DNA of 64,000 bases from Domibacillus indicus (GTDB taxonomy: Bacteria; Bacillota; Bacilli; Bacillales; Domibacillaceae). The notes below the pieces were generated by a model. The model did no database searches, was not told where the DNA came from, and worked only from the letters and a program-made list of their open reading frames with translations. Shown here piece by piece: positions 38,803 to 62,122 of this stretch (position 1 is its first letter; each line of letters begins with the position of its first letter). Location of the stretch: positions 62,001 through 126,000 of the forward strand of contig NZ_JAMBOO010000005.1 in NCBI RefSeq assembly GCF_023715895.1, given 5' to 3'. The position numbers and the translations under genes were made by a program.

Positions 38803-39033
38803 CGATACCCTTCTTTCCTGTTTTTAATATGCTTTCATTTTACTCCTTTCTCTGATAATGCCAATTAAAAAGCCTTTCCTGTCGAAGGAATTTCCTTTTG
38901 TTCTGCCAAATATTCGTAAACAGAATTTCGTCTTAATGGGCACGGCCACATCATTATCCCATTAATATAAAAACCGCATCGTTTACTAAGCGGCAAGACA
39001 ACATTATTAATAAACCTATCTCACCTTTTTAAT

Positions 39034-39102
39034 GTTCGTGTTTTTTAAAGTATTTTTAATGATAACGTGTACATAAGGATAATAATTTCAAAAAACACGA
39101 AC
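39034..39102. promoter_or_regulatory. Possible PurR box pair
   Basis: GTTCGTGTTTTTT (39034-39046) and AAAAAACACGAAC (39090-39102) form a perfect 13-bp inverted repeat just upstream of the guaC promoter. CGAAC flanked by A/T resembles Bacillus PurBox sequences, and guaC is a PurR target in B. subtilis. The spacing (43 bp between arms) is longer than the usual 16-17 bp, so this is tentative. Confidence 0.4.
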
Positions 39103-39108
39103 TTTTAG

Positions 39109-39137
39109 TTGACAGAAAAATAAATATATCCTAAGAT
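39109..39137 (+). promoter_or_regulatory. Sigma A promoter of guaC
   Basis: TTGACA (39109-39114), 17 bp, TAAGAT (39132-39137). Transcription would start near 39144, just before the riboswitch. Confidence 0.8.
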
Positions 39138-39171
39138 CAATATTGTTAGAAAACATGAATAGTACCGTTTA

Positions 39172-39275
39172 CGTTCGTATATCCTCAATAATATGGTTTG
39201 AGGGTTTCTACTAGGATCCGTAAAATCCTGACTACGAATGGGTGTCTTTAGAGAACCCATTTGTAGTCAGGATTT
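39172..39275 (+). promoter_or_regulatory. Guanine-class purine riboswitch with overlapping terminator
   Basis: The aptamer spans 39172-39240. P1 pairs TTCGTA (39174-39179) with TACGAA (39233-39238). P2 is CCTCAA/TTGAGG with loop AATATGG. J2/3 is GTTTCTACTAG. P3 is AGGAT/ATCCT with loop CCGTAAA. J3/1 is GACTAC. The base equivalent to position 74 is C (39232), so guanine is the expected ligand. A 21-bp terminator stem follows: 39223-39243 pairs with 39255-39275 (one G-U), then a T-run. The terminator's 5' arm contains the 3' strands of P3 and P1, so ligand-bound aptamer and terminator exclude each other. This is the wiring of an ON switch. Confidence 0.88.
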
Positions 39276-39337
39276 TTTTATTGTTTTCTAAGAAATAAGG
39301 AAATAATTAAGAAAAAACCTATTTAGGAGTGTTCAAA

Positions 39338-40321
39338 ATGGATAATGTATTTGATTATGAGGATATTCAGTTAATTCCAGCAAAATCGATTGTAAACAGC
39401 CGGTCTGAATGCGATACAAGTGTTACGTTTGGCAGCCGGACATTTAAGCTGCCGGTTGTGCCTGCTAATATGCAGACGATTATTGACGAAAAGATTGCTG
39501 TTTACCTGGCGGAAAATAATTATTTTTACATTATGCACCGTTTCCAGCCTGAGAAGCGGCTTGATTTTGTGAAAGACATGCAATCCCGCGGCTTATATGC
39601 CTCTATTAGTGTCGGGGTTAAAGAAGAAGAATACACGTTTATCACAAACCTAGCAGAAGAAAATCTTACACCTGAATATATTACGATCGATATCGCACAC
39701 GGTCATGCCAATTCGGTCATCAATATGATTCAGCATATTAAGAAGCATCTGCCTGGAAGCTTTGTAATTGCCGGGAATGTCGGAACACCTGAAGCGGTGC
39801 GCGAGTTAGAACATGCGGGCGCGGATGCGACAAAAGTGGGCATCGGACCTGGGAAGGTATGCATTACAAAAATTAAAACTGGATTTGGAACAGGCGGCTG
39901 GCAGTTAGCTGCGCTGAGATGGTGTGCAAAAGCAGCGAGCAAGCCGATTATTGCAGACGGCGGTATCCGTACACACGGGGATATTGCTAAATCTGTCCGG
40001 TTTGGTGCATCCATGGTGATGATTGGCTCCCTGTTTGCCGGACATGAAGAATCTCCTGGAGAAACAGTTGTCCAAGACGGAAAGATGTATAAAGAATACT
40101 TTGGATCAGCTTCTGAGTTTCAAAAAGGGGAAAGAAAAAATGTCGAAGGTAAAAAAATGCACGTGGAATACAAAGGTGCCCTGCAGGATACGTTAACGGA
40201 AATGGAGCAGGACCTACAGTCTTCTATTTCTTATGCGGGCGGAAACAAGCTGTCCGCAATCCGCAATGTAGATTATGTAATTGTGAAGAATTCCATTTTC
40301 AACGGTGACAAAGTATATTAA
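39338..40321 (+). CDS. guaC: GMP reductase
   Basis: 327 residues, IMPDH/GMPR TIM barrel without a CBS pair, as expected of GMPR. The catalytic Cys is in GPGKVCITK (Cys175). The substrate loops [10 protein letters not shown] and [10 protein letters not shown] follow. The late [20 protein letters not shown] is the GMPR2-like flap. It deaminates GMP to IMP with NADPH in purine interconversion. The ATG at 39338 has GGAG 8 bp upstream. The GTG at 39329 overlaps that site. It is controlled by the riboswitch at 39172 and ends in a terminator at 40339. Confidence 0.95.
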
Positions 40322-61919: not shown

Positions 61920-62122
61920 ACTGCTCGCCCCTTGTATTCTAACTGCTCTTTCTTTGTACAATATAGAGCACCTTATTACACAAATGATCTGGCTGGTTCA
62001 GCTTTCGAGTTACTGCTGCTAAAATTATTTTAGCACAACATACTATAAAAGTAATTTTTTTCTATATGATTAAATCGCTTAGAGATACCACTCCCTATAC
62101 ATCGCGCATTTGGTATTAAAGG

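Follow-up and report, generated by a model that had tools for sequence, protein, structure and literature searches.

A predicted guanine-activated ON riboswitch in front of the GMP reductase gene guaC in Domibacillus indicus and other Bacillales

The GMP reductase gene guaC of Domibacillus indicus is very probably controlled by a transcriptional riboswitch which is turned on by guanine. The predicted switch lies in the leader of the gene, in a window of 64,000 nucleotides (positions 62,001 to 126,000 of contig NZ_JAMBOO010000005.1, which belongs to a 180-contig assembly), and all coordinates given here refer to the plus strand of this window. It is not a new riboswitch class: it is a guanine-I aptamer on a pbuE-type ON platform, with a new gene link, and it occurs in several genera. 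The aptamer, the terminator, the mutual exclusion of the two, their conservation, and the pairs of PurR-like boxes in related bacteria were obtained by computation; the ligand, the direction of the response in vivo, kinetic control and PurR binding are what we infer from them.

The only RNA family match at gathering level in the whole 64-kb window was RF00167, which aligned over its full model length to 39155-39254 (+) with 80.9 bits (cut-off 37, E 6.3e-13). The purine aptamer, of the guanine type, was delimited to 39172-39240 (+) from this match and from the count of pairs. It has the three-stem junction and the conserved core of the family: P1 (39172-39179/39233-39240) has eight pairs, one of them G-U, and all pairs of P2 (39183-39188/39198-39203) and P3 (39212-39217/39225-39230) are canonical. 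The pyrimidine of J3/1 that specifies the ligand is, from the sequence and the RF00167 alignment, C39232, position 74 in the xpt numbering. J2/3 reads GUUUCUAC with no insertion in the RF00167 alignment, and the core fits the guanine-I consensus at J2/3 and at J3/1 (A73, C74). An earlier note on this DNA had described a complete purine aptamer with C at 39232, and this description proved exact to the base. Guanine-II was ruled out by the absence of the single-base J2-3 insertion from the alignment, and the adenine ligand class of pbuE by the presence of C and not U at position 74.

The terminator consists of a 5' arm at 39223-39243 (+), a 3' arm at 39255-39275 (+), assigned from pair count and conservation, and a U tract evident in the sequence at 39273-39279 (+). 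All 21 pairs of the helix are canonical, one of them is G-U, and the last three A-U pairs draw on the U tract. The 5' arm covers the end of L3, the 3' strand of P3, J3/1 including C74, and the 3' strand of P1, so the overlap of a 21-bp terminator with the P3 and P1 strands, claimed earlier, was confirmed; the inclusion of these two strands in the terminator arm is the feature by which the pbuE-type ON platform is recognised. The stretch 39160-39280 had a fold energy z-score of -6.5, and none of 200 shuffles was equally stable. A simple terminator scan of the leader, allowing loops of 3-8, returned no site; the loop here has 11 bases. As the terminator and P1/P3 have common bases, the two structures cannot exist together.

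The gene downstream (39338-40321, +) was identified as guaC by TIGR01306 (659.9 bits, cut-off 465.65), in agreement with the earlier note. Its product is identical to that of Domibacillus sp. PGB-M46 and 97% identical to that of D. robiginosus. A predicted promoter, TTGACA-17-TAAGAT (39109-39137, +; 10/12 matches), ends 34 bases upstream of P1 and would place the transcription start near 39144. A likely ribosome binding site, AGGAG (39325-39329, +), was recognised from the sequence about 46 bases past the U tract; at this distance control is more likely to be exerted at transcription, and translational control was set aside on this ground.

We folded the growing transcript from the predicted start, each length being treated as an equilibrium. 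The probability of P1 was 0.92-0.95 for 3' ends between 39242 and 39257, fell to 0.15 at 39260, and was 0 from 39263 on; P3 was lost at 39272, and at 39278 the terminator had a probability of 0.97-0.99. In these folds the aptamer thus forms earlier and is displaced later by the terminator. With the 3' end at 39250 no base of the terminator 5' arm paired outside the aptamer above p 0.2, with the exception of an extension of P1 (39163-39166 with 39241-39244, p 0.83-0.90), which favours the aptamer side. By eye, this extension is present in the same-species leader L104 and absent from the other leaders compared. The earlier statement that there is no separate antiterminator therefore holds for the single length inspected, with the reservation that the P1 extension also pairs with the 5' arm. 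The lack of a competing pairing, together with mutual exclusion, means that a ligand which stabilises the aptamer must oppose termination, i.e. the layout is that of an ON switch. Because the complete terminator wins at equilibrium, the function of the switch would depend on kinetics.

The working of the switch can be envisaged as follows. RNA polymerase would first transcribe the aptamer. Without guanine, a hairpin nucleus downstream of P1 would zip up and displace the 3' strands of P1 and P3, and the completed 21-pair terminator would halt transcription ahead of guaC. Guanine, paired to C39232, would let the aptamer keep the P1 and P3 strands until the polymerase has cleared the U tract, and guaC would be made; its product would convert surplus GMP to IMP. 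The proposal that guanine stabilises the aptamer, blocks the terminator and induces guaC is supported, at the level of modelling, by the anatomy of the leader, the order of folding, conservation, the constant C74 and the contrast with other aptamers of the same genome.

The genome from which the window was taken contains six purine aptamers. Those in front of purE, xpt and a xanthine/uracil-family permease gene (L003) are followed by terminators that start 32-49 bases downstream of the first base of the P1 3' strand and do not overlap it, and that of a NupC-type transporter (L005; 438.1 bits, cut-off 442) has a weaker hairpin alone, starting 22 bases after the same point. These copies bear on the reading in which the guaC leader is an OFF switch or a ligand-independent attenuator, some hidden pairing governing the terminator and the aptamer being irrelevant. 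Guanine riboswitches do commonly lower expression when guanine is plentiful (PMC9295807), but the purE, permease and xpt aptamers are built differently from the guaC leader, in which terminator and P1/P3 exclude each other through their common bases and the only rival partner of the 5' arm above p 0.2 at 3' end 39250 is the P1 extension on the aptamer side; we regard an OFF switch or plain attenuator as very improbable.

The sixth aptamer (L006:1501-1600; G000:C95:39258-39357) is also of the ON layout and has G instead of A at position 73; it precedes an amidohydrolase gene whose product scored best with the NCBI model '5'-deoxyadenosine deaminase' (741 bits) and was below the cut-off for 8-oxoguanine deaminase and guanine deaminase. 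The same G73 type was seen at seven other loci of the family set and nine of the order set, and may represent the 8-oxoguanine riboswitch class. An identical ON layout with G73 in the same genome indicates that the binding pocket drifts in this lineage, and it is one reason to consider that the guaC switch is an ON switch for another physiological purine, such as hypoxanthine, xanthine, 8-oxoguanine or a nucleoside. According to PMC9295807, guanine-I aptamers disfavour hypoxanthine and xanthine only about 10-fold; the paper also mentions a guanine-I variant that senses 8-oxoguanine. Against this stand the J2/3 sequence, A73 and C74 of the guaC aptamer, which fit the guanine-I consensus, and the fact that GMP, the substrate of GuaC, is one salvage step from guanine. 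Another purine as the ligand is in our judgement unlikely, and guanine is the ligand that we favour.

RF00167 gave 104 matches in 24 genomes of the family. Two of these (L182 and L133) were dropped, as the pattern did not match usably where it was expected, and the remaining 102 were classified as 16 clear ON and 86 OFF layouts. The script had flagged 26 overlapping layouts, of which the 16 with compact strong hairpins were retained as ON; the other ten (L093, L113, L114, L128, L129, L135, L137, L140, L142 and L145) were reassigned to OFF by eye: their hairpins were either weak or long with interruptions, and the sibling loci L125 and L138 have separate terminators. The ON set consists of guaC (4, all C74), adenosine deaminase (4, all U74) and amidohydrolase (8, C74 with G73) leaders. 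The genes of the OFF set, assigned by similarity, are permease (26), purE (24), xpt (19), guaA (10), nupC (4) and others (3).

A guaC gene scoring above the cut-off was found in 9 of the 24 family genomes, and four of the nine have the complete switch, all with C74. A fifth (G016) apparently has the switch truncated by a contig end: its contig seems to be that of L007, as the distance to the contig end is equal, and L007, with just 130 bases before guaC, retains the 3' part alone. In the other four (G020-G023) no aptamer match was found beside the gene. Within the genus of the window, the switch was present in all four guaC-bearing genomes.

For a wider survey a covariance model (R1) comprising P2 and the overlapping terminator was built from the four guaC leaders. 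At E up to 0.001 it had matches in 192 of the 299 genomes sampled from the order. The order set of ON layouts consists of 110 of the best 114 matches (E up to 7.8e-9), the four left out being three that were already in the family search and one on the opposite strand; since R1 selects the ON layout, the survey is uninformative on the frequency of ON layouts among all purine riboswitches. The family and order sets overlap (L001 = L185, L155 = L188). The earlier note had suggested comparing guaC leaders by covariance search, and among these best 114 matches the same layout was indeed found before guaC at 20 of the 110 loci, the window included, corresponding to 20 of the 299 genomes, eight genera and seven families (nine of the 20 from one genus), with C74 in 20/20. 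The gene itself is present in 156 of the 299 genomes, so that about one in eight of these has the switch and 136 have no such switch among the matches examined. The device is thus not general across the guaC-bearing genomes of the order and the family.

Among the other members of the order set, U74 was present throughout in the leaders of adenosine deaminase (13) and of a further amidohydrolase family (7), and C74 throughout in those of the L006-type amidohydrolase (9, with G73), xanthine/uracil-family permeases (12) and a FAD-dependent protein (6). The pbuE-like MFS pumps (38), assigned by sequence pattern and checked for L220, had U74 in 33 cases and C74 in 5, and five loci belonged to other genes. 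Of 398 genomes sampled from the class, 74 matched at E 1e-12; 30 loci were retrieved, and none of the 25 newly numbered ones, two of which repeat order loci, belonged to guaC. Among 80 named loci with GuaC as the best match, an aptamer preceded the gene in three, plus L007 with the 3' part alone on its contig; the pattern used here allowed five substitutions within 500 bases, and thus diverged aptamers could be missed. The named carriers of the guaC switch are Domibacillus, Ectobacillus funiculus and Alkalihalobacterium elongatum.

The 23 aligned guaC leaders (alignment A2) represent 22 different sequences, L008 being identical to L102 and L086 to L187. Pairing was kept in 95.0% of the cells for the aptamer and in 90.7% for the terminator helix; slid registers gave far lower values for both. 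Covariation in these leaders is thin: pairs altered on both sides numbered three in P2 (in two Domibacillus rows alone), one in P3 and two in the terminator, the three in P2 being pairs common to both structures, and further pair types did not exceed shuffles (346 and 375 of 500). The terminator pair of columns 67-96 was lost in 18 of the 23 rows, and two further pairs in 9 of 23.

Within the aptamer, position 74 pairs with no other RNA base, hence a matched change of this base and its terminator partner speaks for the terminator. Over the 110 ON loci of the order the combination was U-A in 53, C-G in 51, U-G in one and unpaired in five, all of these with C; C74 was unpaired in the folded terminator of 3 of the 20 guaC leaders. 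In a tree of 103 aptamers, a single well-supported branch separated 11 of 12 OFF rows from the ON rows; the twelfth, L005, with a very long branch, fell among the ON rows. The OFF rows were hand-picked from the 86 and all come from one family, whereas the ON rows span the whole order, and the tree, built from 71 columns, is of low resolution, with 46 of 100 inner branches open, a long-branch attraction warning and no resolved root or direction. In this tree the guaC row of the window did not join the other guaC rows (two changes), and C74 among the MFS-pump switches requires at least three changes. These data suggest that there is an ON lineage within which the ligand base and its terminator partner change together. 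The pbuE-like efflux pumps with C74 for U74 (L267, L273, L274, L275, L280, L281) are candidate natural adenine/guanine conversions.

Drogalis and Batey (PMC7707468) describe that the xpt aptamer, made adenine-responsive, switched on the pbuE platform only if its P2 tune box was paired and a mismatch lay beside L3. All 22 distinct guaC aptamers, including that of the window, have a fully paired P2 tune box, and 16 of the 20 in the order set have the L3-proximal mismatch; the window has a U-A pair instead. In the family set, which was collected with RF00167 and consists of few and related gene groups, both tune-box pairs were present in 14 of 16 ON aptamers vs. 21 of 86 OFF aptamers, and the L3 mismatch in three of the OFF aptamers (two unparsed). 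The order-set count, 108 of 108 parsed aptamers (L219 and L291 of the 110 were unparsed), is biased by the paired P2 contained in R1. As a general marker of ON switches the tune box is weak.

The guaC promoter may add a second level of control. We defined a box pair by a rule of our own, as a CGAA and a TTCG core in convergent orientation, at a distance of 25-36 bases and with A/T-rich flanks; the background of this rule was 15 of 2218 windows and 39 of 4000 mononucleotide shuffles. Such a pair was found in 19 of the 20 guaC riboswitch leaders of the order set, all but that of the window, and also before 68 of 76 guaC loci without the switch. With their starts 30-31 bases apart, the paired boxes span the promoter and lie about 80 bases upstream of the aptamer. 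Their spacing is that of the B. subtilis PurR boxes, which are 14 bp long and separated by 16-17 bp; PurR binds at B. subtilis guaC by ChIP (PMC8789054), and a purR deletion raises the guaC transcript about 100-fold (PMC4223553). The window has a PurBox-like half site (39092-39106, +; CGAA core 39098-39101) just upstream of the -35 element, and by the box-pair rule no partner was found at the usual place 30 bases downstream. The Domibacillus relatives L008, L102 and L104 also have the upstream box alone, by eye. From this distribution, relatives probably combine PurR and guanine control and Domibacillus may rely mostly on RNA. The box pair of the relatives probably serves as a PurR-type operator that controls initiation at the promoter, and guaC expression would need PurR release as well as guanine. 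A lone inverted PurBox-like TTCG site was also noticed at 39031-39041, 63 bases upstream of the CGAA box, in a spacing unlike the usual operator.

The missing box, and the paired L3-proximal position in which the window differs from 16 of the 20 guaC aptamers, would fit an element that has decayed or is out of use and always terminates, with guaC expression driven from another site. We find this hardly credible, as the aptamer and terminator of the window are fully paired and conserved across eight genera, and a predicted promoter stands directly upstream; a functional ON switch remains our preferred reading. Taking the observations together, we incline slightly to the view that guaC in some Bacillales is a two-input gate, with PurR, sensing PRPP and ppGpp, acting at initiation and a guanine ON riboswitch at elongation, and that the switch belongs to an ON-type purine lineage separate from the OFF guanine switches, in which the ligand flips between adenine and guanine via the pyrimidine at position 74 and its terminator partner while the ON platform is kept.

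It is useful to compare the guaC switch with known systems. The adenine riboswitch of B. subtilis pbuE (ydhL) has, similarly, a terminator built from aptamer sequence, which invades through P1 into L3, and its ligand prevents termination (PMC7707468). The guaC leader differs from it in having C74 instead of U74, a U-A pair at L3 in place of the A-A mismatch of pbuE, and a GMP reductase gene instead of a purine efflux pump. With the guanine-I riboswitches (xpt, pur operon, pbuG, yxjA) it shares the aptamer class and C74; the purE, permease and xpt copies in this genome have the separate downstream terminator of a class described as OFF, whereas the guaC leader has the ON layout and precedes a GMP-consuming gene. 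B. subtilis guaC is, likewise, a PurR target (PMC8789054, PMC4223553), but the relatives studied here seem to add a riboswitch layer. In PMC9295807, guanine-I switches are described as lowering expression, and an ON direction is predicted for guanine-II; the guanine switches of C. difficile are OFF (PMC11477304). Full-length purine models with the terminator have been analysed as OFF (PMC3723493) and with the terminator as a covarying downstream hairpin (PMC13273304).

The contrast drawn in the earlier note between well-studied OFF guanine switches and the ON adenine switch of pbuE calls for a qualification: guanine-II of Paenibacillus was already predicted to be ON (PMC9295807). The guaC switch is for the same reason a variant and not the first guanine riboswitch predicted to be ON. 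Guanine-II resembles it in sensing guanine, which is predicted here, and in the predicted ON direction, and differs by a one-base J2-3 insertion, absent from the aptamer of the window, by other variations, and by preceding mostly phosphoribosyltransferase genes (PMC9295807). In the open-access literature that was searched we found no guanine riboswitch before guaC and no ON guanine-I switch.

A conserved ON guanine-I switch on a gene of GMP disposal would complete a simple logic, in which adenine turns on disposal and guanine turns on GMP recycling. Such switches would be natural counterparts of the designed chimeras of guanine-type aptamers and the pbuE platform, and would make the aptamer features needed for strand invasion testable against evolution. 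The pairing of PurR and riboswitch, if true, would be a compact two-signal controller.

Several other ON layouts came to light in the survey. Switches with C74, mostly with A73, precede xanthine/uracil-family permease genes (L195, L200, L215, L217 and eight more in the order set, and L296, L297, L299 and L317); PF00860 was present in the two permeases checked, and box pairs were seen at 6 of the 12 order-set loci. Induction of a purine permease by guanine would be surprising; the protein may be an exporter or have another substrate. At L272 (G222) an ON-layout aptamer with U73 (UC in J3/1) was seen; the gene that follows after about 330 bases resembles, below the cut-off, xanthine-dehydrogenase iron-sulfur subunits. 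ON-layout switches with CUAG in J2/3 or with G73 precede the gene of a FAD-dependent protein (L225, L228, L240, L265, L283, L286 and, by eye, many of L295-L319); the protein has PF21688 in L225 and L228, and that of L228 had no NCBIfam match at 1e-20.
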